Assembly: GCA_021793275.1 (NCBI GenBank)
Contig: JAJYTC010000012.1
Coordinates: forward strand, 1-48,840
Length of the DNA stretch: 48,840 nucleotides
Origin: Deltaproteobacteria bacterium
Lineage (GTDB): Bacteria; Desulfobacterota; Syntrophobacteria; Syntrophobacterales; Syntrophobacteraceae
Reading direction: 5' to 3'
The position numbers and the translations under genes are program-made. The first letter of the stretch is position 1; the number at the start of each line of letters is the position of its first letter. The notes below the pieces were generated by a model that worked only from the letters and a program-made list of their open reading frames with translations, did no database searches and was not told where the DNA came from. Below, piece by piece: positions 18,376 through 32,328 of the stretch.

Positions 18376-18657
18376 TCAGCCAAACTTATGCCGCACGCCG
18401 TAGCCACCGCGGGGAAAGCGCCAGTCGATATTGAAGTGGGGGCAGCCGACGCGGCACGAACCGCATTCCAGGCAGCCTTCGTAGTTGACGCTTACGCGGT
18501 CCTTTTCCATCTTGTAGACATTTGCCGGGCAGATATAGAGGCAGGGCTGATCGTCGCATTTTTTCATGCACACGTCGGGGTCGATCAGCCGAAGGTGGGA
18601 TTCGTCGTCTACGTTAAATCGATTTAGAAACAGCTTGTCTTCAACCTTTGCACTCAT
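18376..18657 (-). CDS. fixX: ferredoxin-like protein FixX
   Basis: 93-residue ferredoxin of the FixX/ETF-QO C-terminal type. Two cysteine clusters are present: C30, C34, C39, C43 (degenerate, PDVCMKKCDDQPCLYICP) and C62, C65, C68, C72 (CLECGSCRVGCP). The second forms a typical [4Fe-4S] site. FixX works with FixC to pass electrons between ETF and the quinone pool. Its ATG overlaps the fixC stop codon (ATGA), indicating coupled translation. It is the last gene of the fixABCX operon. Confidence 0.92.
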   Translation of the reverse strand: MSAKVEDKLFLNRFNVDDESHLRLIDPDVCMKKCDDQPCLYICPANVYKMEKDRVSVNYEGCLECGSCRVGCPHFNIDWRFPRGGYGVRHKFG

Positions 18658-19958
18658 CGAATGCTTCTCCATGCGTCCCAGATGAGGTGCAGCAGCCGCA
18701 AAGGGGCCGTCCGGCTCCTCATAGCCTGCCAGGCTGCGCGCTGACTGGTTTTTTTCGGCGTCTCGTCGACCGTGAGGATTGTGCGCAAAGCCGCCGAAAC
18801 CCCGTCGGGAAGGGTGGTGAAAAGCTCCTTGTGGGTTTCCAGGAAGGAAGGAAACCTGCGATATTTTTTCAGGTCCTTTAAAACGAACGACTCCTCCAGC
18901 CGCGCACCATAGGCTTGAAGCGTGCGGGAACTGAAATCGCCTTTTTCCATCGCATCGAGGATCGTTGCAGCCGCCAGTCTTCCCGAAGCCATAGCGAGGT
19001 TCGAGCCCTCCCGGTGAAGCGCGTTGAATAACATGGCCGAATCGCCGGCAATGAGGAAGCCGTCGCCGAAAAGCTTGGGCACGGTCTCAAAGCCGCCTTC
19101 GGGGAGCCAGTGCGCAATGTACTCAGTGGGTTTTCCGTCTTTTATAAGGGGCGAGATCGCCGGGTGCAGCTTCAGTCGCTCGATCATTTCGTAGGGGCGG
19201 ACCCTTTGCCTTGCGAAGTCGGAGAGGTTTGCCCCTATCCCTATCGAGACCGAACGCCTGTTGGTGTAGATAAACGCCACACCGTTCATTCCCGCAGTCA
19301 CGTTTCCCAGGATTTCATTTGTAACGCCGTTTCCGGCCGATACGCCGAAGCGTTCGTCGATGACCTCTTCGGGGAGCGCGATCAGCTCTTTTACCGCAAG
19401 GGCAACCTTGCCCGGCCTCACCTCGGGCCGAAAGCCGGACCTTGCGGCCAGCGGCGAATTGACCCCGTCAGCGAGAAGGACCACCTTTGCGCGCAAATCG
19501 CCGTCGGCCCGGTCGGTTTTCACCCCGATCACCCTGCCGGCCTCATCCCTCAGCAAATCGGTAACGACGGTCGAACAAACGACGAGCGCCCCTTTGGCCC
19601 TGGCCTGATCGGCGAACCAGCGGTCGAATTTTGCTCTTCCCACCGTGAATGCGTTGTTTTGGAGTTCTTCGAAAAAAGCGTGGTCGCGGTATGCGAAACT
19701 GATCGATCCTTGCTCGGAAAGATAGCTGATTCGGGACTCGACGATGTTGCGTTCAATGGGGCAGTTTTTCTGTGCGTAATCGGGTATTATCCGGCCCAGG
19801 CACCTGCCGTAGAGAACGCCCCCGAACATATTCTTCGATCCCGGGTATTCGCCTCTTTCCAGCACGATCACCTTAACGCCCCTGTCCGCCAGAATGCATG
19901 CCGCCGAAATGCCGGCCGGCCCCGCGCCTACGATTGCCGCATCGAACTTTTCTTCCAT
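18654..19958 (-). CDS. fixC: FixC, ETF-quinone oxidoreductase-like flavoprotein
   Basis: 434-residue FAD-dependent oxidoreductase. The Rossmann FAD motif is VGAGPAGISAA (residues 10-20) and the second FAD contact is GDGFLIAGDSAMLFNALHREG (split; about 300-320), typical of the ETF:quinone oxidoreductase/geranylgeranyl reductase family. With FixX it forms the quinone-reducing arm of the FixABCX bifurcating complex, in which NADH oxidation drives reduction of ferredoxin and quinone, or the reverse in syntrophs. The gene overlaps fixX by 4 bp and lies 13 bp after fixB. Confidence 0.93.
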   Translation of the reverse strand: MEEKFDAAIVGAGPAGISAACILADRGVKVIVLERGEYPGSKNMFGGVLYGRCLGRIIPDYAQKNCPIERNIVESRISYLSEQGSISFAYRDHAFFEELQNNAFTVGRAKFDRWFADQARAKGALVVCSTVVTDLLRDEAGRVIGVKTDRADGDLRAKVVLLADGVNSPLAARSGFRPEVRPGKVALAVKELIALPEEVIDERFGVSAGNGVTNEILGNVTAGMNGVAFIYTNRRSVSIGIGANLSDFARQRVRPYEMIERLKLHPAISPLIKDGKPTEYIAHWLPEGGFETVPKLFGDGFLIAGDSAMLFNALHREGSNLAMASGRLAAATILDAMEKGDFSSRTLQAYGARLEESFVLKDLKKYRRFPSFLETHKELFTTLPDGVSAALRTILTVDETPKKTSQRAAWQAMRSRTAPLRLLHLIWDAWRSIR

Positions 19959-19971
19959 GGAGTTTTCCCGG

Positions 19972-21222
19972 TTAGGACTTTTTGTTCCTGAGCTGGGCGA
20001 TCAGCTCGGGGACTACTTGCTGGTAATTGCCGACAATGCCAGCGTCGGCGACCCTGAAAATGGGCGCATTGGGGTCGGAGTTTATGGCCACGATCTTATC
20101 GGCCCCCTGGATGGCCACCAGGTGCTGGACCGCCCCGGAGACCCCTACGCCTATATAGAGCCTGGGGGCGACGGTCCTGCCTGTCTGGCCGACCTGTCTT
20201 TCATAGGGCAGAAGCCCGGCCTGCACCACCGGTCGCGAACAGGCCACGACCCCTCCGACCAGTTCTGCCAATTCTTCCAGAAGGGACAGCGAAGAGGGGT
20301 CGCATGCGCCGCGCCCGGCCACTACGAGCGCCGGATAGCGGACGATGTCGATGCCTGCCTCAGCGCCTGTGGGGATGAATTTTACGATCTCGGGCAGTTC
20401 GACCGCCGGCGGTTCGAACTTATGCCGGCTTACAGTTCCTTTTCTTTCAGCGTCTCTTTTGGGCATCGCGAACACCCGCGGCCTCACCGAACTCATCTGG
20501 GGCCGTTGGCGCTGGCAGAAAATGGTGGCCATAATGTTTCCGCCGAAAGTGGGGCGGGTCATTAGAAGCAGGCCGGTTTCCTTTTCGATAAAAAGTCCCG
20601 TGCAGTCGGCGGTGAGGCCGGTTTCGAGCCGTGTGGCGACAACCCCGGCAAGGTCCCTGCCCAGGGGAGTCGCGCCTACGAGAAGGATTTCCGGGCGAAC
20701 TTCTGCGCAAAGATCGGAAAGCGCCTTGCCGAACGTAGCGGATAAATATCGGGCAAGCAGAGGATCGTCCATTACGTGGATCTCGTCGCAGCCGTAGAAA
20801 ATCGCTTCCTCGGCGACATCGCCCACATTGCTTCCAAGGACGAACCCCAGGACTTTCGCGTCCAATTGTTGTGCAAGCTCCCTGGCTTTTCCGGCCAGTT
20901 CCCACGAAACAGGCGCTCCGCGCCCGTCCACGATTTCGATAAAAACCGCAACTCCCCGGTGACTCGGCGGTTGCGCACCTGGTTCGGCCGGCTTTTCTTC
21001 GGCGATCTTCCTGCGTTTTTTCTTCTCGAACCTCACCGCGTTAACCGGGCAGCTATCGAAACATTTGCCGCAGCCAACGCATACTTCCGGATCTATTTCG
21101 GCCACCCCGGCGGCATTGAGTTCGATGGCGCCGACAGGACATTCTCCTATGCAAATTTGGCAGGCGATGCACTTATCCGGAATAATTTCCGCAACTTCGA
21201 TCCCCCGCGTGTTTTTTGCCAT
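19972..21222 (-). CDS. fixB: ETF alpha subunit (FixB) with N-terminal 2x[4Fe-4S] ferredoxin domain
   Basis: 416-residue electron-transfer flavoprotein alpha subunit. The N-terminal about 70 residues are a two-cluster ferredoxin (C18, C21, C24, C28 and C48, C51, C54, C58; CIACQICIGECP and CVGCGKCFDSCP). A lysine-rich linker of about 20 residues connects it to the ETF alpha domain. The C-terminal FAD-binding signature GVSGAVQHLVAIQGADKI is clear. The fused ferredoxin is seen in anaerobes and probably relays electrons to or from soluble ferredoxin. It is encoded 25 bp downstream of fixA and 13 bp upstream of fixC. Confidence 0.94.
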   Translation of the reverse strand: MAKNTRGIEVAEIIPDKCIACQICIGECPVGAIELNAAGVAEIDPEVCVGCGKCFDSCPVNAVRFEKKKRRKIAEEKPAEPGAQPPSHRGVAVFIEIVDGRGAPVSWELAGKARELAQQLDAKVLGFVLGSNVGDVAEEAIFYGCDEIHVMDDPLLARYLSATFGKALSDLCAEVRPEILLVGATPLGRDLAGVVATRLETGLTADCTGLFIEKETGLLLMTRPTFGGNIMATIFCQRQRPQMSSVRPRVFAMPKRDAERKGTVSRHKFEPPAVELPEIVKFIPTGAEAGIDIVRYPALVVAGRGACDPSSLSLLEELAELVGGVVACSRPVVQAGLLPYERQVGQTGRTVAPRLYIGVGVSGAVQHLVAIQGADKIVAINSDPNAPIFRVADAGIVGNYQQVVPELIAQLRNKKS

Positions 21223-21247
21223 CGGCTCTTGCCCCCTCGTTTGCTCT

Positions 21248-22084
21248 CTACGCCTTCCAGCCTTTCACAAACCCCGCCGCAAACTCTTCATCGGAAAACA
21301 GCGCATCGAGGGCCGCCGATACCGCTGCTGAAACGCCCTCTGCCGCGTCCCACCTGGGCCCGGCCCTGTGGACCTGCGGTGAAGCGATCGCCTTTACCCA
21401 GGTCGGCGAACCCTTGATGCCGACCAGGGCGGAAGAGGCGCCTATGGCTTTGGCATCCCAGGTTTTAACCGGTGTTCGAAGAGAATCGATAAGCATGGGC
21501 AGCGAGGCCCTCCTCGGGGCTGCCAGTTCCAACTCGACCGATAACAGGGCGGGAAGGGCGCCCGAAATCACTTCGAATCCCCCTTCGACCTTGCGCCTGA
21601 CCTGCAAGCGTCTTTTATCGGGATCGATCCGTTCGACTTCGATCACATAGGTGAACTGGGTAAAACCGAGCCTTGTGGCAATTCCGGGTCCCGTTTGCGC
21701 CGTATCTCCATCGACAGCCTGTTTTCCACACAGGACAAGGTCGACCGGTTCAACATTTCCCAGCGTTTCTATGGCTTTTGAAAGCGTGTAGCTTGTGGCC
21801 AGAGTGTCGGCGCCGGCAAAAGCGCGGTCGGAGAGCAAAACCGCGTCGTCGGCGCCCATCGAAAGCGCCTGCCTTAGCACGCTATCGGCCTGCGGAGGCC
21901 CCATCGATATCGCCGTCACCCTTGCCCCGTATTTTTCCTTGAGCCGCAAGGCTTCTTCCATGGCGGTGATATCGTAGGGATTGGCCATGGATTCTACGCC
22001 TGCGCGAACCAGGGTGTTGGTTTCAGGATCGATTTTGACCTCGGCGGTGTCGGGCACCTGCTTGATGCAGACTACGAAATGCAT
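21248..22084 (-). CDS. fixA: ETF beta subunit (FixA)
   Basis: 278-residue ETF beta subunit. The N-terminus MHFVVCIKQVPDTAEVKID is canonical. The conserved VDGDTAQTGPGIATRLGF nucleotide-binding loop and SMGADDAVLLSDRAFAGADT are both present; the latter resembles bifurcating ETF beta subunits that hold an extra FAD. The start is ATG at 22084 with an AAAGGA motif close upstream; longer in-frame starts to 22168 are not supported. It is first of the four fix genes, 111 bp downstream of a ParB-like gene on the same strand. Confidence 0.94.
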   Translation of the reverse strand: MHFVVCIKQVPDTAEVKIDPETNTLVRAGVESMANPYDITAMEEALRLKEKYGARVTAISMGPPQADSVLRQALSMGADDAVLLSDRAFAGADTLATSYTLSKAIETLGNVEPVDLVLCGKQAVDGDTAQTGPGIATRLGFTQFTYVIEVERIDPDKRRLQVRRKVEGGFEVISGALPALLSVELELAAPRRASLPMLIDSLRTPVKTWDAKAIGASSALVGIKGSPTWVKAIASPQVHRAGPRWDAAEGVSAAVSAALDALFSDEEFAAGFVKGWKA

Positions 22085-22195
22085 TTTTCCTTTTCCCCGC
22101 GCTTGTGGAGCTTTAGGAAAAGCTTGTGGTTGAAATGCGTGGGTAAGCATCCAATCTAAAGTTGGCAAGGGTGAAGAGAGGTTTTCGGATGGAGC

Positions 22196-22507: not shown

Positions 22508-22891
22508 TCACGCCGACTCGGGTTCGGTCGGGCTCAAGAGCTTCTGGATGCATTCTTTCAATTCCTTTATTTTTACCGGTTTGGCGAAAAAGCCGTCCAC
22601 CTTGCTTTTCATGGCTTCCACCGCCGAATCCAGGCTTGCAAAAGCCGTTACCATGATAACCTTTACTTCCGGGTAGGCCGTTTTTATCGTGCGCAGCACG
22701 TCCATTCCATCGATGCCCTTCATCTTCAGGTCGGTGATGACGACGTCGAATTTTTCCTCCCTGAGCCTCGCAAAGGCAGGTTCCGCACTGAGAAAAGTCT
22801 CCACCACATAGCCGTCGGGTTCCATGGCGACCTTTATCATTTGCCCGACAATTTTTTCGTCGTCTATCACTATGACCCTGAAACCAGGCAT
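22508..22891 (-). CDS. CheY-like single-domain response regulator
   Basis: 127-residue receiver domain with acidic pocket D10, D11 and E12 (VIDDEK), phospho-acceptor D54 (VVITDLKMKG), T/S at VTAFAS and the conserved lysine in FFAKPV. It has no output domain. Its ATG is 2 bp from the stop codon of the upstream kinase gene and is preceded by AAAGGAG, so it is almost certainly the cognate partner of that kinase. Because it lacks an output, signalling must proceed by protein-protein contact, possibly with the DUF202-array proteins of the same operon. Confidence 0.9.
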   Translation of the reverse strand: MPGFRVIVIDDEKIVGQMIKVAMEPDGYVVETFLSAEPAFARLREEKFDVVITDLKMKGIDGMDVLRTIKTAYPEVKVIMVTAFASLDSAVEAMKSKVDGFFAKPVKIKELKECIQKLLSPTEPESA

Positions 22892-22893
22892 GG

Positions 22894-24300
22894 CTAGCTC
22901 CTTTCCAAGCGACTGCAAGCCGGAAGCTCTATGGTGAAGCAGGTCCCCACCCCCGCTTCGCTTTTTACCCGCATTTCTCCCTTGTGGTTTTTGATGATTC
23001 CGTAGCTTACGAACAGGCCCAGCCCCGTTCCGCCCGCCCCTTTGGTAGTAAAGAAAGGATCGAAGATGTGGGGCAGAATCTCGGAGGATATGCCGCTGCC
23101 GGTGTCTTCGACCTCGACCTCCACGCGGGCCGAATCAGGGTTGAAACGGGTTGCAAGACGCAGCCTGTCGCCCGGCGAGGAAGCGTGAATGGCGTTAGTG
23201 AGCAGGTTGATGAGCACTCCCTGGATTTGGTCTTCATCTATGAAGACCGTCGGCAGGTCCTCCTTTAGCTCCATCTTCGAGTCGATGTTACAGACGGAGA
23301 TCATATTCTGCACGAGCCGCATGCTTTTGTTGACCACACTGTTTATGTCGGCCTCCCTGAAGTCGGGTTTCTTGGGCCTGGCAAAATCGAGCAACTCCTT
23401 GACGATTCGCTGGATGCGCTCGGTTTCGTCCTCGATCCTCTTGACGTACTCTATGTGCTCGTGCCTGCCCATTCTATCATAGAGTTCGACGAAGTTCTGC
23501 GCCAGCATGGAGATATTGTTGAGAGGATTGCCGATTTCGTGCGACACGCCCGAGATAAGAATGCCGATGGAAGCCAGCTTCCTTGCCTCGATCATCTGTT
23601 CCTCATGGTTTCGCAGTTCCCGGGCCATAGTGAGCAGAGCTGAAACGGCCATGCCGCATTCATCGCGGGATTTCTCGGGCTCGATTTTTTCGAATTCACC
23701 TCCTGAAATCAGGTGAGCGGCCTTTTCTATGCGCTTCAGCGACCCGAGGACCCTGACCGATAGAAGCAGAGTAACCCCAACGGCGGTAAACACGATCAAC
23801 ACGAAAGAAAAAAAGAGCCCCCTTTGAGAACCTGCGATAATACTGTTCACCTCCGCCCGCTCGGAGGCAGTGATATAGTTCATGAAGTCCATGGTATTGC
23901 GGCCAGCGGAGCGAACCTTTGCCTGAGCCTCGGTATTCCCGGTCCCGGCTTCCTGGAGCGTGCGGTTGTAATTTTCCAGATTGGATTCGAGCCGGGCTGT
24001 TTTCGCCTCGCCGATCGCCCTGACAATATCGGGCCTCGACCGCTCTATGGTCTTGATAGAGTCGTTTATCTTCGAGTGAATTTCCGAAAGGGCCGATTTT
24101 TCCCCATACAGGAAAAAATTCTTTTCCGCGAGCCTCATCTCGAGCAAAGACGAATCCAGACCGTCGGCAATTTCCACGAACCTCAGTTTTGTAAGCACCT
24201 GTTCGAGGCTGTGGTAGGCGAGAAAGCCGGTGACGACTATCAGCAAGATGTTGGCAAGATTTACAGCGATTACCTTATGGAATATTTTGATCTGTTTCAA
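22894..24300 (-). CDS. membrane sensor histidine kinase
   Basis: 468-residue histidine kinase. Two transmembrane segments (about 10-30 and 162-182) enclose a helical periplasmic domain of about 130 residues, resembling four-helix-bundle sensors. A HAMP linker follows, then HisKA with phospho-acceptor H254 (SGVSHEIGNPLNN), and the HATPase domain with N box (LINLLTNAIHAS), G1 (DTGSGI), F (FDPFFTTK) and G2 (GGTGLGLF). The start is TTG at 24300, about 11 nt after GAGG and immediately after the stop of the upstream DUF202-array gene. It is followed directly by a single-domain response regulator. Confidence 0.92.
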   Translation of the reverse strand: MKQIKIFHKVIAVNLANILLIVVTGFLAYHSLEQVLTKLRFVEIADGLDSSLLEMRLAEKNFFLYGEKSALSEIHSKINDSIKTIERSRPDIVRAIGEAKTARLESNLENYNRTLQEAGTGNTEAQAKVRSAGRNTMDFMNYITASERAEVNSIIAGSQRGLFFSFVLIVFTAVGVTLLLSVRVLGSLKRIEKAAHLISGGEFEKIEPEKSRDECGMAVSALLTMARELRNHEEQMIEARKLASIGILISGVSHEIGNPLNNISMLAQNFVELYDRMGRHEHIEYVKRIEDETERIQRIVKELLDFARPKKPDFREADINSVVNKSMRLVQNMISVCNIDSKMELKEDLPTVFIDEDQIQGVLINLLTNAIHASSPGDRLRLATRFNPDSARVEVEVEDTGSGISSEILPHIFDPFFTTKGAGGTGLGLFVSYGIIKNHKGEMRVKSEAGVGTCFTIELPACSRLERS

Positions 24301-24302
24301 GG

Positions 24303-25511
24303 TTAGAAAGCCTCTGCGCTTTTCAGCGCCTCATAACTCTCTTTCCTGCACGGCCAGGACCACAATATGCCGTCCACGATCATAAGAAGGCCCGCTACGA
24401 TCATAAATATGTCGAGCAGATTGAGAATGCTCGGGCGAAAATATTCCAGGAAACCCAACCCGCCGCTGGCGAAGGCGACGCCTGTGCCGATGAAGGACAG
24501 CCCGGTCCTTGCCCGCGCGTAAATCGTGCGGTAACAGGCCGCTACGGTGCGCTGCGCGGCAAAAACGTTCCTTTGGTGAGCCAGCAGGGAACGGGGTTTG
24601 TTGTCGCGCGAACCATCGATGACCACCACGGTGCGACTGGCCAGGTCGAAAAGGCGGGCCAGCATGGTCTTGCCTTCTTTGCTTTCCACCTCTCCGGGGT
24701 CAACGAACTGGTAGTCCTCGAGAAACTGCACGCTTGCCGCCGTAACCTCAATAAGCGTCTGGTGCCTGGGAGGACGGTAAAAGGACCTCTTGATCCTGTA
24801 GTAGCTGATCATACCGAGGATGAACAAAAGCAAGCCGAAACCGATCAATGACCAGTAAAACGGCGCAAAATGGACCGTGTGGCCGTTTCTAAGAAGCGCT
24901 CTTCCGACCAGTATGAACGTCAGCCCCGCCTCGAGGAAACTCATATAGGTCCTGACCGTGGCGAAATCGGTGCGGTAGGTGGCAAGCTTGGTCCTCCACC
25001 GGGCCATCGTATTGCGCCACACCGCCAGGGCCGTCCTTTCGTTTCCGGAAAGATGCTGCGGATCAGAGTTCAGAAAATCCCCTATAAAAAAGAAAATATC
25101 CTCGGCAAGAGCTACCATGAACTGATATGTCCTGCCTTCTCCCATGCATTGTCTGACGTCTTGGGCGACGAAAGGATCGGTGGGGTATCTGGCTGCGATT
25201 ATCACCGTTTCGCCGTCCAAGGCGACGGGAAACCAAAGCATCAAAGTGAGTCTTTCCGGGTCCAGACCCTCAAGGAGCTCCGGAGGCACCGGAATTCTTT
25301 CGTCGTACTCGACCCAGTCGCACCCGCAGGAAAGCGCGAGGGCCTCGAGCAGCTTGCGGCGCGGAATTCCCCGCTCGTAGCGCAGCACCTCCTCTACTTC
25401 GATGTCCCTCACTCGGGCCGCTTCCCCTGCCGAGCTCAGTTCCCCCGCGCTCAGGAGCCCCCAATCCACCAGCGGCCTGAAGCTTGCCGTCGAATCAGCC
25501 ACCGCACTCAT
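24303..25511 (-). CDS. GspE-N-like domain plus two DUF202-like membrane modules
   Basis: 402-residue protein. Residues about 13-147 have the beta/alpha pattern of the type II secretion GspE N-terminal (MshEN-like) domain, ending in LAEDIFFFIGD. Two DUF202-like modules follow (about 158-245 and 314-390). Each begins with a helix where Arg-Thr/Asn recurs every seven residues (R159, R166, R173, R180, R187; then R314, R321, R328, R335) and continues with two transmembrane segments ending in a short basic tail. There is no ATPase domain. ATG at 25511 (AGGACA upstream) overlaps the 3' end of the larger paralogue by 17 bp. The function is unknown; the operon position between a NarL-type regulator and a kinase suggests signalling. 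Confidence 0.72.
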   Translation of the reverse strand: MSAVADSTASFRPLVDWGLLSAGELSSAGEAARVRDIEVEEVLRYERGIPRRKLLEALALSCGCDWVEYDERIPVPPELLEGLDPERLTLMLWFPVALDGETVIIAARYPTDPFVAQDVRQCMGEGRTYQFMVALAEDIFFFIGDFLNSDPQHLSGNERTALAVWRNTMARWRTKLATYRTDFATVRTYMSFLEAGLTFILVGRALLRNGHTVHFAPFYWSLIGFGLLLFILGMISYYRIKRSFYRPPRHQTLIEVTAASVQFLEDYQFVDPGEVESKEGKTMLARLFDLASRTVVVIDGSRDNKPRSLLAHQRNVFAAQRTVAACYRTIYARARTGLSFIGTGVAFASGGLGFLEYFRPSILNLLDIFMIVAGLLMIVDGILWSWPCRKESYEALKSAEAF

Positions 25512-27246
25512 TGTCCTCATAGCTGAACGTCACCTTTTTCCATAACTGGGTCGGCTTGGCGTAATCAGGGATTCTGATCTCGAGGCCCTCCCAGCAATAG
25601 GGCAGTTGTTTTTTTCTGCGCTCTGCCTTGAGGTACCAGAAGATGCCCTCGGATATCATGAACAGCCCGGCGATAATCAGAACGAAATCAAAAATGGTCC
25701 ACCAAATGTTGCCCCAGCCGAAATAGACTTGCAGACCGAAACCGACCGAAAAAATACTCGTTCCGGTCCTGATGAACCTCAGGGCGGTCCTGGACCTTGC
25801 CAGCGTGGTCCTGAGCCTCGCTTTGACGTTGCGCCTCTCGGCAAGCAGCGTTCGTTCCAAAGCAAGCCCGGTGGTCCCCCAAATCCCGGGGGCGTAGGTA
25901 CCCTTGAGCGTCAGTTTGGGCGGCAGGTCGTCAAGCCGGCTGAACGCCCGGAACATGAAATCCCAGATCGAAGTACTTTCCTCGATCTGCCTGGTGGTTT
26001 TTATGCTTTCCACAACGGCGCGCCGCCCCGGAAAATACCACCTGGCGCCTTCGAAAAACATGAGGACGCCCGTCATGAGCAAGCCGGCATAAAAAAGCGA
26101 CCAGGCCCCGACAGGATAGTTTCTCCACAGCAGTATCCCGAAGCCTATCACGGAAGTGCCGGTGCTCGCGAAGGCAAGGCCCGTCCTGGATCTCGCCATC
26201 CTCGTGCGGTACATTGCGAGAAGCGTCCTCTCTTCGGCAAGGTCCGCCCTGTCTATTGCGAAAAATCTGCGCCTCATGACGGGAGAAAGCCGGTTCCAAC
26301 GGTTGCGAAGCTCCTGCGCCCCCTTGACCGGCTCGGACCTCGTAAGGACCGTGCCGAATTCGCTCGATTTTATCTGCGGAATAGTTGTCCCGAATGTCGA
26401 GCGGGCAGGCACATAGCCTATTCCCTTCGGTTCGAGCTTTCTCATGGGTATGTACCAGGTGATACCCTCCACGACCATGAAGACCCCGCCGAAAAGAATG
26501 ATCGCCTCTATTATGCTGAGCCAGCCGATCCCGAAAATCCTGAGAAGAGTAAGGCTGATGGCGATGAATTTGACCCCGATTCGCATGGCGGCCAGCCCCG
26601 TTCTTCCCTTCGCCATGGTGGTCCTGTAGCGGGACATTTTCACCCGTTCGGAGGCAAGCCTGGTGCGGATCCGAGCCAGAGGGGTCCGCCCGGCTTCGGG
26701 CGGAAAACCGGGGTTTACGTCCTGGCTGTGCTCGACCATGCGGATTATGTCGGTGGGCAGGGCGAAGACGAAGCGGAGCGCCCCCGTGCCCAGGTCGCTT
26801 TTGATCTTTTCGAACAGCATCGGGGCTGCGGGGTTCGAGGTCGCCACCAGCGCCTCTTTGGTGGTGACCGAAATCGGGAACCACAGCTCGCGCTTTAGCC
26901 CGACAAGATCGAGGCGATCGAGAATTTCGCCCGGCGTTCTCAGACTCTCGCTGAATTCGACGAACGGAAGGTTGTAATGAGTGCTCAAACAAAGCAGGAT
27001 TTCATGTTTCGCGACGCCCAGGTCTCTTAGCGACTTCTCGATTCGTCTCAGTGAGCCCTCCGAGTCGAAAACGATCTTTTCCAACTCGGCCCTTTCGATC
27101 ACTCCCCGCTCGGCCAATGCGCCAAGGGCTCCCAGGCAGTGCTCTATCGGTTCTTCAACCAATTCATTTTGAGCATGGAGGCTCTTTTGCAGCATCAGCA
27201 TCCGATCCACTTGAAAGTCGGCTTCGCCCGGCCGGGCGAATCGCAC
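25495..27246 (-). CDS. GspE-N-like domain plus three DUF202-like membrane modules
   Basis: 583-residue paralogue of the downstream gene. The N-terminal domain (about 36-175: ERGVIERAELEKIVF ... HYNLPFVEFSE ... ALVATSNPAAP ... LPTDIIRMVE) resembles the GspE/MshE N-terminal fold. Three DUF202-like modules follow at about 187-270, 331-410 and 459-545. The leading helix of each shows Arg at exact 7-residue spacing (187-222 six times; 333, 340, 347, 354; 465, 472, 479, 486, 493), usually followed by Thr. Each module then has two transmembrane segments and ends in a W-Y-x-P/L motif. GTG at 27246 is assumed; ATG at 27201 is an alternative. It lies 20 bp after the NarL-type regulator gene. Confidence 0.72.
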   Translation of the reverse strand: MRFARPGEADFQVDRMLMLQKSLHAQNELVEEPIEHCLGALGALAERGVIERAELEKIVFDSEGSLRRIEKSLRDLGVAKHEILLCLSTHYNLPFVEFSESLRTPGEILDRLDLVGLKRELWFPISVTTKEALVATSNPAAPMLFEKIKSDLGTGALRFVFALPTDIIRMVEHSQDVNPGFPPEAGRTPLARIRTRLASERVKMSRYRTTMAKGRTGLAAMRIGVKFIAISLTLLRIFGIGWLSIIEAIILFGGVFMVVEGITWYIPMRKLEPKGIGYVPARSTFGTTIPQIKSSEFGTVLTRSEPVKGAQELRNRWNRLSPVMRRRFFAIDRADLAEERTLLAMYRTRMARSRTGLAFASTGTSVIGFGILLWRNYPVGAWSLFYAGLLMTGVLMFFEGARWYFPGRRAVVESIKTTRQIEESTSIWDFMFRAFSRLDDLPPKLTLKGTYAPGIWGTTGLALERTLLAERRNVKARLRTTLARSRTALRFIRTGTSIFSVGFGLQVYFGWGNIWWTIFDFVLIIAGLFMISEGIFWYLKAERRKKQLPYCWEGLEIRIPDYAKPTQLWKKVTFSYEDNECGG

Positions 27247-27266: not shown

Positions 27267-27920
27267 CTATTTCGTCAAAAGTCCCATCTCCAGGGCGAGT
27301 GCGGTCAAAGAGGAAATATTGTGCAGGTTGAGTTTATTCATCAGGTTTGTGCGGTGTTTTTCAACAGTCTTGTTGCTTATGCCCAGCCGGCAGGCTATCT
27401 CTTTGCTTTTGTTCCCCTCCGCGATCATCTTGAGGATTTCTCGCTCCCGCCTGGTGAGCGTGTCCCATGTCGTATACGACTCGATGCTCTTCCTGCCTTC
27501 CACAAAGCCTCGGGGCGCCTTTTCCTCAACGGCCGGGCTTAGATAACTCTTTCCCGAAAAGACGTTTTCAACGGCAAGCATCAATTCTTTGTATGTGGCG
27601 TCTTTGAGTATGTAACCGTCAGCTCCGCTCTTCAGAGCGCTCAAAATGTGTTCCTTGGTGCAGTGAACGGTTAGCACGAGAATTTTCGTCCGCGGACTCA
27701 GTTGCTTTATCCGCCGGGTGGCGCTGACTCCATCCATGACCGGCATCGAGAGGTCCATCAGGACAAGGTCGGGTTTTTGGGACTTGACCGCGCAGACCGC
27801 CTCGATGCCGTTTTGCGCCTCTCCAACGACCTCATAGGCAGGGTCGGAAGACAAAAGCATCTTCAGCCCCTCTCTCATGATTGTATGATCCTCTGCGATG
27901 AGGACTCTTCTCGGTTGCAT
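27267..27920 (-). CDS. NarL/FixJ-type response regulator
   Basis: 217-residue response regulator. The receiver domain has D11 (AEDH), phospho-acceptor D56 (LVLMDLSMP), T at LVLTVH and lysine in YILKDA. The C-terminal LuxR-type helix-turn-helix is LTRREREILKMIAEGNKSKEIACRLGISNKTVEKHRTNL (about residues 152-190). It should bind DNA as a dimer after phosphorylation. The probable partner is the NarX-type kinase encoded 231 bp upstream, as this pairing is typical. It leads directly into the two DUF202-array genes, which may be its targets or operon partners. Confidence 0.93.
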   Translation of the reverse strand: MQPRRVLIAEDHTIMREGLKMLLSSDPAYEVVGEAQNGIEAVCAVKSQKPDLVLMDLSMPVMDGVSATRRIKQLSPRTKILVLTVHCTKEHILSALKSGADGYILKDATYKELMLAVENVFSGKSYLSPAVEEKAPRGFVEGRKSIESYTTWDTLTRREREILKMIAEGNKSKEIACRLGISNKTVEKHRTNLMNKLNLHNISSLTALALEMGLLTK

Positions 27921-28151: not shown

Positions 28152-30692
28152 TTAATTCGGACGCATATTTGCCGGCCACTCGGCGCTCAAGATGGTTCCC
28201 GTTTCAGGCGCCGACCGGATCCTCAAACAGCCGCCGGAAAGCTCCGCCCTTTCTTTCATGCTTGCAAGCCCGACTCCTTGTCGCTCGCGAACGGCCTCCA
28301 GGTCGAACCCCGCTCCATTGTCCTCTATCATGAGTCTTATGGCGCCTTCCTGGTTGGAAAGAGAAAAATCCACATACTCGGCCTTGCTGTGCTTGGCGAT
28401 ATTGTGAAAGGCTTCCTGGGTGATCCGGAATATCACGATCCTCAGAGGCTCGGGGATATCCTGTTCTTCAATGCCGATCTCGGCCTCGACATGGATTGCG
28501 GGATAGATCTGCCGATATTGCCTGAAAAACCATTTAAGGGCCGCAAGCACCCCCATATCATCGAGGACCGGGGGCCGCAGATCGCTCATGAGTCTTCGTA
28601 TCTCATTGATCGTGAGCTGGGTCCACTCGATCAAAGGATCGAGCATATCGGGACCGTGTCCGTTCCGCTTGAGCTCCTCCCGGGTTTTTTCAAGGCCCAT
28701 CTTTATGACGGTAAGCGATGACCCGATGCTGTCGTGAAGTTCTCTTGCGATCCTTTTTCGCTCTTCCTCGTGGGCCGAAAGAAGCTGCGCTGAAAGAGAG
28801 CTCAGCCTGCTTTCCGATTGCCGGAGCGCTCGTTGCGTTTGCCTCAAATCCGTGACATCGATGGAGACCGCCAGGATTCCCGTGATTTTTCCATCGGCGT
28901 CTCTGATCGGCAGCTTATCCGTCCGGAGCCATCTTTCCACGCCCGACAGGTTGACTGCGCGCTCGATAATTCCAAGTTTGGGCTTTTCCGAAGAGATGAC
29001 CTCCAAATCGTCCCGGTAAAATTTTTCTGCATCGAACGGAAAAATTTCGACCGCCGGTCTGCTCTGTATCTCTTCGACCCCTAAACCTGCAAAATCCGCC
29101 GCTGCCCTGTTGACCCGGATGAAATGGTTTTTGGTGTCTTTGTACCAGATGATTGCGGGCACGGAGTTAAATATAATATCTAGTTCGCCTGCGAGACCTC
29201 GAAACTGCTCCTCGCTTTCCCTCAGGGCTTCCTCGGCCAGCTTGCGCTCGGAGATATCGACTGCGAGTTTCAGCACCAGCGGGGCGCCCTCCGCATCCGT
29301 GAACGGATGGGTGTGAAACGAATAGCATTTTCCATCCGGAGCGGACCATTCCCAATGCCGGGGAAGCTGCGAATTCAAAGTGCGCGGTATGTCACAGTTC
29401 TCACATGCGTCGGTGCTTTCCATAAACAGTTCGTGGCATGACTTTCCCTTTGGATCGCCGAAGGTTTCCCTGAATGTGCGGTTGGTAAATATGATGGAAC
29501 GGTCCGGCGCCTGGAGGTAAACGCTTGCGGGCATGGCCTCGAGAACCGCGATAAGCCGCTGCTGAGCAGCCCTGAGCTCTCTCTCACGCGTTCGGACTTT
29601 TTCGGCCATCGTGTTGAAGGCTGATGCCAGACCTTTCAGCTCGCCGGGACCCCACACTTCGATCTCGCTTTCCACACCCCCTCCGCCAAGCTCCGAAGCA
29701 TGCTCGAACAGTCTTCGAATGGAGCTGGATATGCCTTCCGAGAGTGTGAACGCCCCGAGGAAGGCTGCGCCGGCAACGAGAAGGAATACAAGACCCTCGC
29801 GCAACGCCTGGGATTCGATCGGAGCCGCCACACCGTTTCCGGGGCGGCTGGCGCATGCAGTCCAGCCAATTGACGAGATAGGGGCAAAAGCCGCCATGCG
29901 ATCTCCCCGCCCGTCGTAGGAAGGAATGACTGCGGCGACTTCCCGGCCTTCCAAGGCCTGCCTGACAGCAGGCAGGTTTTTAAAACGGTTTCGCCTCCCC
30001 CAACTCCACTCGACCCCGGGCGCCCGGAAGACTACTGCGCCACGACTGTCGATAATGGTGATCGCTTCATCGTCATCCGGATGAATGGGAATGATATTCT
30101 CCAGCCACTCAGGATCGATTGCCGCTACCACAATGCCCAGAAGCTCTCCCTTTTCCCCCCGGACGGCAAGGCTTACGGTGAAGACGGGCTTACCCGTGAC
30201 GCGCGAGCGTAAAAGATTGCTCACCACCCACCTCTTGCCCGAGACGATCTTACGCACATAATCGCGGTCGCTCAGGTTCAAACCGACAACCGATCTCAGG
30301 CTCGACATGGTGACTCGGCCATGGGGGTCGAGCCATGCGAAGTTGCGGACAGCAGGGAACGCTGCTTTGTTCAATTTGAGTATCCGCTTCACCTCATCCG
30401 GGGCGATAGGCATAGGCATCGTTAAGTTTGCCCCTATAGCCGTCTCCTGATGGAGAAGCCCCATTATGAATGTATGGAAGGCGACCGCCACCGCCCGCGA
30501 CATCTGCGAGTCCTCGTGGGATGCGGCTTCCATTCGTTTCCTGAATCTTACGTATGTATATGCCACCTGGACGAACATCACCGGAATGAGCACGGAGAGG
30601 AGGAGCAAAAAAAGCCTTCCCCGAATGGATGAGAAAAGTTTGTGGCGGGTTGCCTGGATCGTGCCCGACGGGCTTTCAGGATTATCATTCAT
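28152..30692 (-). CDS. NarX-type sensor kinase with periplasmic Cache-like domain and two PAS domains
   Basis: 846-residue histidine kinase. A first transmembrane segment ([21 protein letters not shown]) is followed by a large periplasmic domain of about 270 residues that looks like a double Cache ([17 protein letters not shown] ... [15 protein letters not shown]). A second transmembrane segment and HAMP come next, then two PAS domains. The first PAS carries a CENC cysteine pair and CHELF, typical of several redox or heme-type PAS domains. The transmitter is HisKA_3, with H653 in [12 protein letters not shown], followed by HATPase. ATG at 30692 has AGGTGA upstream. The partner is probably the NarL-type regulator downstream. 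Confidence 0.9.
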
Positions 30693-30812
30693 GCTGAAAT
30701 CACCTGTGATCGCCGGCTGTTTGACATTCTTTAGAAGTGAATGCTCCGGTTCTGTCCTGTCTGCCTGCACCTTCCCGATGCCAGGCGGCCTCGTTCAAGC
30801 CGGTTTCATTGT

Positions 30813-31565
30813 CTATTCAGGGCGCGGCCTTTTTGCCGCAAGGTTCAGTCCCGCTATCTTTACGGCCCCGCGATGATAGCCGGCAGGGAAGAGTTCGGCG
30901 AGTTCCTCCATACCGATCCCGACCGCCTCGCATGTCGCATAAACAGTGGGGACCTCGCCGTTTCTCTCATATTGCGAGCGCATGTGCCTGATGATCCGCC
31001 AGTGCTTTTCGCTGAGAGGAGCGCTCATTTGCAGTTCGCGGGCTTTGAATATGGCGAATTCCTCATCCCACTCGTTGGGGTCGATTAGAAAACCCAGTAC
31101 ATTCACCCGGTAGACCCGTTCATCGGGGGGAACAGGTTTAAGTGGACCGTTTTGTGTTGGATGCGGCGGGGCAGTCGCTCCCCGGGCTACGCAGGACACG
31201 CGGTTGAGCTTGTGGGCTTCTTGCTGGAACTGAAGCTCGGCCTGCTTCATGACCGCGGTCATAAAGGACAGGCCCGCAAGCTTGCACGCCCCGCGCTGGT
31301 AGCCGGAGGGGAAAAGCTTTTGGAGGTCCTTGAAACTCAGCCTGTTGGCCCTGCACGTCTTATGAACCACGGGGCATAAGCCGGTTTGGCGATAGGTGTC
31401 GCGGATGAACCTCAAAACGTCCCAGTGGGAGGGGCTAAGACCGTCCGCTATGCCCAGCGCGGGCGCCATGGCCTCGGCGAAATCCTCGTCCCATTGCTCC
31501 TGGTCGAGCAGGAAACCGTCGTCGTCAAGGATGTAGGTCTTGTTTTTTCTCTCAAATGTATGCAT
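30813..31565 (-). CDS. tandem DsrC/TusE-like protein
   Basis: 250-residue protein made of two DsrC/TusE-like repeats: residues about 10-100 and 150-240. Both show the family layout: GFLLDQEQWDEDFA and GFLIDPNEWDEEFA, then LSPSHWDVLRFIRD and LSEKHWRIIRHMRS, then LFPSGYQRGACKLAGL and LFPAGYHRGAVKIAGL. In DsrC the redox pair is a near-C-terminal cysteine and a second one 10 residues earlier in the QACKIAGL-type motif. Repeat 1 keeps that inner cysteine (C94), repeat 2 has valine (V235), and neither has the terminal cysteine. C71 and C212 are conserved between repeats. It is probably a non-canonical partner or regulator, not a trisulfide carrier. ATG at 31565 has AGGGA upstream. Confidence 0.78.
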   Translation of the reverse strand: MHTFERKNKTYILDDDGFLLDQEQWDEDFAEAMAPALGIADGLSPSHWDVLRFIRDTYRQTGLCPVVHKTCRANRLSFKDLQKLFPSGYQRGACKLAGLSFMTAVMKQAELQFQQEAHKLNRVSCVARGATAPPHPTQNGPLKPVPPDERVYRVNVLGFLIDPNEWDEEFAIFKARELQMSAPLSEKHWRIIRHMRSQYERNGEVPTVYATCEAVGIGMEELAELFPAGYHRGAVKIAGLNLAAKRPRPE

Positions 31566-32328
31566 GTCATCCCTGAAGTCTTTTGCCGCGCGAGGCGCCG
31601 GCGCAGCCGTGCGTCTATGCGGCAAGCGCCGGGATGCCCGGTACGCCGAGTCGACAGTTAGTAGCAATCCAGTCTTTTGTCCGTCTTGTAAACGATACCG
31701 TATCAAAAAGGATGCCAAATGAGATTGGCTCGTGGCAAGGCGGCGAACAGTCGCCTGCTGTTTCATGTCCCCATGAAACGCCGACAAACCGCGACCTTTC
31801 GGCTGCTCGCTTACCTCTCGTCTTGACTTTTCGCAAATCCGAAACAACCCCATCGGGCAAGACCTGTCACTATTATATTCCAGGTGTATCATTTTAGTAT
31901 AGCAAAAATATCTATGCGCTCACTTTTATCATCCCGGATGGCGTCGGGTTTGCGCGACACGAAGGCCAGGCATGGATTTTGCTCTAAAAACCTGTAAGTA
32001 CGAAGCGTTAGCAGGCGCTTGGGACAGTGGCTTGCGCAAAGGTCGGCACTTCCAGGGCTGCTTTGTTTGCATCGGCTCGGGGCAAGGCTGTTTTCACCAC
32101 GAAAGGAAGGGCGCGAAGGCGAAAATGCGGGGCCGGACCGGGATTTGATCTCTGACTCAGCCTTGGGGCACTTTCCTCGCCGTCGATTTTCCGTTATATA
32201 CGAAAGGTCCTTTGCCGGGCTGTTTCGCTGTCGATCCCGGGAGTTGCGCGGCGTAAATTTTTGGATATTCTGTTCATCCCGGCCGGGGGATTTAGAGATT
32301 TTTATTGGTAATCAGGTGAGGTTGCGCA
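31566..32328. other. long intergenic region between divergent gene blocks
   Basis: About 760 bp separating the minus-strand DsrC-like/kinase/fix block from the plus-strand kinase block, so promoters for both are expected here. An AT-rich segment at about 31868-31925, unlike its GC-rich surroundings, is the likeliest promoter area. A stretch at about 32094-32125 (TTCACCACGAAAGGAAGGGC) resembles low-complexity CACGAAG-type intergenic repeats. A long minus-strand reading frame through 31565-31892 shows no protein-like features and is not called. No riboswitch was recognised. Confidence 0.45.

Follow-up and report, generated by a model that had tools for sequence, protein, structure and literature searches.

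A conserved pair of tandem DUF202 proteins encoded beside a histidine kinase and a CheY-like receiver: a possible arginine-lined pseudo-pentamer of the inner membrane

The window, that is, the whole stretch of 48,840 nucleotides analysed here (contig JAJYTC010000012.1, assembly GCA_021793275.1), belongs to a 4.65 Mb draft genome of a deltaproteobacterium of the Syntrophobacteraceae. It holds two overlapping genes, called A and B below. Gene A encodes an MshEN-like N-terminal domain followed by three DUF202 membrane modules, and gene B a similar domain followed by two; each module bears an arginine at every seventh residue of a long helix. Because of the homology to the membrane domain of the yeast vacuolar transporter chaperone (VTC), the geometry of this arginine ladder and the fixed module types, taken together, a five-fold assembly is proposed. 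A and B would constitute a pseudo-pentameric, arginine-lined membrane barrel controlled by the neighbouring histidine kinase (HK1) and CheY-like receiver, a reading placed slightly below even odds (about 0.45). The invariant 3+2 count, the ladder and the VTC homology all go beyond a preliminary description of this DNA, made from the letters alone.

Architecture of the two proteins

Both families named in the preliminary description were recovered over their Pfam cut-offs in both products. MshEN (PF05157) scores 27.5 bits in A and 31.3 bits in B (cut-off 23.1), and DUF202 (PF02656) 26.9 bits in A, with three stretches, and 28.1 bits in B, with two stretches (cut-off 23.4), which bears out the three and two modules described for the overlapping genes. 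No ATPase family was found by Pfam in A or B, as had also been stated; neither protein thus qualifies as a type II secretion or type IV pilus assembly ATPase, for which a C-terminal P-loop is the mark. The two genes overlap by 26 bases. Gene A opens with a GTG codon and homology starts at about residue 36-44, so that the true start may, judging from the sequence, be M16 or M18. The closest relative of gene A is found in a Syntrophobacteraceae metagenome-assembled genome (84% identity), and no DUF202 gene besides A and B was found in the window's own genome.

According to AlphaFold2 (AF2) models, each module consists of one unbroken helix of 52-57 residues, in which the ladder runs into the first transmembrane (TM) segment, TM1, and of a second helix, TM2. 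The model of A has a mean local confidence (pLDDT) of 84.5 and a global score (pTM) of 0.77, and that of B 80.8 and 0.59. Modules had previously been described as a helix plus two TM segments: the long helix and TM2 hold, but the ladder and TM1 form a single helix rather than two elements. With two TM helices in each module, its two ends come to lie on the cytoplasmic side, as a tandem fusion requires. The features are as follows.

25495-27246, minus strand: gene A, 583 residues, MshEN-like domain and three DUF202 ladder modules (open reading frame, Pfam, AF2, orthologues)
26716-27141, minus strand: MshEN/GspE-N-like domain of A, residues 36-177 (Pfam; fold match to 5htl_B, Z 13.1)
26434-26688, minus strand: module A1, residues 187-271; ladder Arg 187, 194, 201, 208, 215 and 222, with Arg 236 at the far end of TM1
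25978-26283, minus strand: module A2, residues 322-423; ladder Arg 326, 333, 340, 347 and 354, with Arg 375 at the far end of TM1
25606-25890, minus strand: module A3, residues 453-547; ladder Arg 465, 472, 479, 486 and 493; best Pfam DUF202 match, at 479-543
24303-25520, minus strand: gene B, 405 residues, MshEN-like domain and two DUF202 ladder modules (open reading frame, Pfam, AF2, orthologues)
25074-25487, minus strand: MshEN/GspE-N-like domain of B, residues 12-149 (Pfam, AF2, Foldseek)
24777-25049, minus strand: module B1, residues 158-248; ladder Arg 162, 169, 176, 183 and 190
24309-24599, minus strand: module B2, residues 308-404; ladder Arg 310, 317, 324, 331 and 338

The arginine ladder

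Over five to six heptads per module, the in-phase positions of the orthologues are occupied by arginine in 97-100% of sequences, with a single position of B1 at 93%. An arginine recurs 14 residues further on, at the far end of TM1, with a frequency of.83 in A1 and.88 in A2, and in 13/13 one-module proteins (see below). The pooled heptad frequencies read R.96, T.77, x, L/M.82, A.91, x, x. In the hpphhph (Type-2) pattern of alpha-helical barrels, the a and d positions contribute to the lumen, and one computed pentamer design of this type carries a bulky Ile at g (PMC8503928). The four conserved positions of the ladder have exactly the Type-2 spacing, the fit giving a=Ala, d=Arg, e=Thr and g=Leu; by analogy with these designs, the ladder arginines would face a lumen.

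Relation to the VTC membrane domain

Yeast VTC is a 3:1:1 pentamer in which five TM1 helices form a channel, and K24 and R31 of Vtc1, together with their equivalents, sit on the channel wall (PMC9911596). Vtc1 (query sequence identical to PDB 8i6v_A) matches PF02656 with 63.9 bits, its residues 24-85 covering profile positions 1-67. Profile positions 1 and 8, those of K24 and R31, correspond to R479 and R486 in A and to R183 and R190 in B, assuming no gap in the first eight profile positions, and are conserved at 98-100%.

Conservation of the pair and the count of five

Orthologous pairs were found by searching 297 genomes of the same phylum; among 84,980 species genomes scanned, 104 relatives of A came to light, for which 80 loci were examined. 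These span Desulfobacterota, Nitrospirota and some Actinomycetota, and nearly all come from uncultured organisms. Modules were counted using a profile built in this analysis. Every A contains three modules, and all 76 uninterrupted pairs are 3+2, with A and B always adjacent; the other four loci are cut by contig ends (L068, L098, L113) or carry a frameshift in module B2 (L091). An apparent fusion of B with the kinase in L091 was discarded, being produced by this frameshift. In Nitrospirota, 26 of 296 genomes carry exactly five ladder modules, as 3+2, and no other multiple occurs; sixth matches in these genomes are, where their place is listed, ordinary short DUF202 genes. Across 395 Desulfobacterota genomes, ladder modules occur as 3+2 or singly. 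One locus among the 80 (L076:8220-11686) has gene A tandemly duplicated, two three-module copies preceding one B.

A tree of 93 modules resolves A2, A3, B1 and B2 each as one clade (support 98 or more), and the one-module proteins as another (97); A1 is coherent save one row, placed at the root. Such a tree is what five fixed, non-equivalent positions would give, for A1 in all but one row.

The sum of five could also be an accident of duplication, A and B forming separate or larger assemblies, such as homo-oligomers or complexes with several copies of each. Orthologous genes share their module number by descent, which this explanation readily accommodates. It is nevertheless judged unlikely, as A and B are adjacent in 76/76 pairs and the five types form nearly all separate clades, fitting fixed non-equivalent positions. 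VTC, too, reaches five by mixing subunits, and by analogy A and B would do so through 3+2 tandem fusion.

N-terminal domains and cyclic di-GMP

The N-terminal domains adopt the MshE/PilF/GspE-N fold, as indicated by the AF2 models, by Foldseek and by VIA (Z 13.1 to 5htl). Fold matches include cyclic di-GMP-bound MshE, the GSPII-B domain of PilF and the PilB-PilZ complex. Together with the Pfam scores, these matches would suit a scheme in which the MshEN domains bind cyclic di-GMP and gate the DUF202 part, one of the options raised in the preliminary description. MshEN receptors bind this ligand through two copies of a 24-residue motif, RLGxx[LVI][LVI]xxG[LVI][LVI]xxxxLxxxLxxQ (PMC5013675). In 64 A sequences, the two Gln positions are occupied by Ala/Ser (.92) and Tyr (.81), and in 58 B sequences by Ala (.93) and Tyr (.79); neither set keeps the Arg and Gly of RLG. 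Since the ligand motif is lost, cyclic di-GMP control was set aside as very improbable. The domains would rather serve as docking domains at the cytoplasmic mouth of the assembly.

Kinase, CheY and the wider neighbourhood

On the minus strand, the gene order is dCache-PAS kinase, NarL-type regulator, A, B, HK1 and CheY, followed by EtfB, EtfA and FixC-like genes.

22894-24300, minus strand: HK1, membrane histidine kinase (two TM segments, HAMP, HisKA, HATPase_c), adjoining B and conserved
22508-22918, minus strand: CheY-like single-domain receiver, conserved; likely start ATG at 22891
27267-27920, minus strand: NarL-type response regulator (Pfam), local to the window's own genome and outside the conserved unit
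28152-30770, minus strand: dCache-HAMP-PAS-HisKA_3 kinase, upstream of the NarL gene, found only in the closest relatives
18654-22168, minus strand: EtfB-EtfA-FixC-like genes (Etf and FixC named by eye from the sequence)

Among loci with room for the gene, HK1 adjoins B in 60/71 and CheY follows in 59/66. A kinase and a receiver are thus encoded with the proposed complex, as befits the output of a two-component system, and the survey of 80 loci upholds, across phyla, the earlier link of a membrane assembly to a kinase-CheY pair. The NarL gene, described at first as the other flank of the pair, does lie there but was dropped as a part of the system: near the pair, no match above 35% identity to it was found in the 80 loci.

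In many Nitrospirota, genes for a Usp protein, a TauE-type permease, an Alph_Pro_TM protein and further Usp proteins precede the pair, while HK1, CheY and a PPDK_N/PEP-utiliser gene follow, at times with genes for a kinase of the Tll0287 type and for an NtrC regulator further downstream. Loci L056, L058, L062, L077 and L088, considered over about 6 kb on either side of A, read Usp, TauE permease, Alph_Pro_TM, Usp, Usp, A, B, HK1, CheY and PPDK-like, the Tll0287-type kinase and NtrC coming next in some. In 36/56 loci with room, a PPDK_N gene occurs downstream of the pair at a distance of at most 3 kb, and in 16/57 one occurs upstream. This neighbourhood suggests a stress- or energy-linked function, and does not yet point to a substrate. 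Usp, TauE, Alph_Pro_TM and PPDK-type genes are all absent beside the pair in the window; about ten PPDK_N loci occur elsewhere in the 4.6 Mb genome.

These dikinase genes invite a more specific explanation, namely that the barrel is a VTC-like translocase threading polyphosphate, supplied by the neighbouring PPDK-like enzyme, out of the cytoplasm. The DUF202 homology to VTC with its matching basic residues and the PPDK_N genes near the pair and near some one-module relatives (L040, L163, L164, L166) agree with it. However, neither A nor B contains an SPX or a VTC (TTM) polymerase domain by Pfam, the role of the PPDK-like enzymes is putative, and no PPDK gene adjoins the pair in the window. PPK1 and PPK2 were both not found in the window's own genome, which leaves A and B without an evident source of polyphosphate. 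Polyphosphate as the substrate rests on an unproven analogy with VTC, and this explanation appears quite improbable.

The EtfB-EtfA-FixC-like genes follow the pair in the window and in close relatives, and EtfB and EtfA are found in distant actinomycete loci as well (loci of the two groups: L053, L054, L103, L104, L114, L117). Their presence hints that the pair is linked to electron-transfer flavoproteins or that the genes were transferred together. A 359-residue open reading frame (30816-31892, minus strand), lying immediately upstream of the gene for the dCache-PAS kinase, encodes two tandem DsrC/TusE domains (PF04358, two stretches, 139 bits).

One-module relatives

Other proteins of the same phylum reach their single module through a much longer ladder, with as many as 38 arginines in the same heptad phase (L044). 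Three of them (L044:3287-4393, L047:2394-3347 and L166:6864-7805) carry 30-38 such arginines in RTxLAxx repeats, which would extend over tens of nanometres if helical throughout. HK1 and CheY orthologues follow the one-module genes in L044, L046 and L047, and a PPDK-like gene adjoins or is near those of L040, L163, L164 and L166. In a one-contig genome of the window's own family (G374), the pair and a one-module gene are located within a few kb of each other.

Three one-module ladder proteins of 344-350 residues (L040:7726-8778, L163:2645-3697 and L164:6436-7470) each adjoin a PPDK_N/PEP-utiliser gene. That of L040 has a C-terminal receiver domain (Pfam), which puts its C-terminus in the cytoplasm; L163 and L164, of the same clade and length, probably have one too. 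A receiver on the same chain is the best evidence for phosphorylation acting on the membrane complex. Control by phosphorylation is favoured for this reason over the nucleotide messenger that the preliminary description had offered beside it. In L042:6398-7201, L045:8674-9498 and L161:12268-13092, a cytidylate-kinase-like gene (PF13189) is found directly upstream of the one-module ladder gene, two of the three with a weak BON match.

Ladders of up to 38 in-phase arginines far exceed what a membrane channel needs, and thereby bring in a different explanation: a signalling scaffold without a pore. The helices would pack as a closed coiled-coil bundle, with arginines paired to acidic residues of neighbours or to nucleotides or phospholipids; HK1, CheY and PPDK-like or Usp partners would assemble on it, and no substrate would cross. 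The conserved HK1 and CheY neighbours, the frequent PPDK_N/PEP-utiliser and Usp genes, and the docking role of MshEN-like domains in pilus and secretion ATPases (the PilB-PilZ complex being among the fold matches) are all consistent with such a scaffold. Yet the closest solved relative of the membrane domain, VTC, is a channel, and the in-phase arginines extend into TM1 and recur at its far end, which is needless for a cytoplasmic scaffold. This explanation is a serious contender, held with less confidence than the barrel.

Proposed mechanism

In the arginine-lined barrel, A and B would be the two chains of one inner-membrane complex, with five DUF202 modules (3+2) around one axis. The long cytoplasmic helix of each module would become TM1 and fold back as TM2. 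The heptad arginines form a straight stripe along this helix; in a ring, they would line a cationic barrel leading from the cytoplasm into the membrane, like the TM1 helices of VTC. HK1 would sense a periplasmic signal and phosphorylate CheY, for which the MshEN-like domains, acting as a docking site rather than as a cyclic di-GMP receptor, may be available at the cytoplasmic mouth. CheY would then bind and gate or remodel the barrel, and an anionic substrate would be passed, or an anionic ligand released. The domains, the number of modules, the ladder, the conservation of the gene unit and the predicted helices come from the analysis itself; we infer the pentamer, the pore, the inward-facing arginines, the docking of CheY, the gating and the anionic nature of the substrate. 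The fullest form of this proposal is regarded as rather doubtful. It sees a kinase-gated 3+2 arginine-ringed barrel as the inner-membrane passage by which an anionic substrate is conducted or threaded, equivalent in bacteria to the VTC channel but lacking its polymerase, and with homopentameric one-module relatives whose stalk possibly reaches tens of nanometres into the cytoplasm.

Several observations weigh against the barrel. VTC subunits have three TM helices, versus two per A/B module in the AF2 models, and AF2 may prefer long helices in repetitive sequence. The barrel design rules derive from hydrophobic Leu/Ile a/d cores, not from Ala/Arg. The 3+2 count is inherited by descent, and the loci are therefore not independent proofs of a pentamer. 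An adjacent HK1 is absent in 11/71 loci with room, and that neither PPK1 nor PPK2 was found in the genome counts here as well. Finally, VTC chains were not reached by the module profile among PDB sequences, nor do they appear in the Foldseek and VIA lists, which says little, as generic helical matches swamp two-helix modules.

Significance and comparison with known systems

DUF202 is widespread and, to our knowledge, its bacterial members have not been assigned a function. The full-text literature outside subscription journals and preprints gave no account of DUF202 modules arrayed in tandem, of fusions between MshEN and DUF202, of the A-B gene unit or of its conserved neighbourhood, in line with the initial impression that no system of this architecture had been described; of 14 full-text papers that mention DUF202, none deals with it, judging by title or abstract. 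Although the domains themselves are known, their arrangement, the conserved gene unit and the family of ladder proteins appear to be new. As the module count of the two-gene array equals the subunit count of VTC, pentameric assembly is directly testable with two proteins, and the tie to a defined kinase-CheY pathway offers a testable role for a family of unknown function. Through the pair, one may also learn what the neighbouring genes do (Usp, TauE-type permease, Alph_Pro_TM, PPDK-like dikinase), a set found repeatedly in Nitrospirota and Desulfobacterota. Should the ladder line a lumen, it would represent a helical barrel of natural origin with an arginine lining, and the one-module proteins, in which as many as 38 arginines share a heptad phase, would be remarkable in their own right.

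Small bacterial DUF202 proteins share the TM1-TM2 core of the module. They are, however, single-module, and the short examples in this survey align with the model only from around position 15 and have no ladder heptads. The MshEN/GSPII domains of MshE, PilF, PilB and GspE share the N-terminal fold (Z 13.1 to 5htl_B), whereas in A and B the domain comes without an ATPase, has lost the ligand residues and is fused to membrane modules. Designed Type-2 alpha-helical barrels agree with the ladder in how the four conserved positions of a heptad are spaced, but their cores are made of Leu/Ile, where the lumen positions would here be Ala and Arg. VTC resembles the pair in its DUF202 membrane domain, its mixed subunits summing to five, its basic residues seven apart in the half of TM1 nearer the cytoplasm, which occupy identical profile positions, and the cytoplasmic N-terminal regulatory domains of some subunits. 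Beyond the number of TM helices, it differs in that the modules of A and B are tandem-fused, three in one chain and two in the other, that their arginine ladder is much longer, that MshEN-like domains stand in place of the SPX and TTM polymerase domains, and that A and B are linked to HK1 and CheY.

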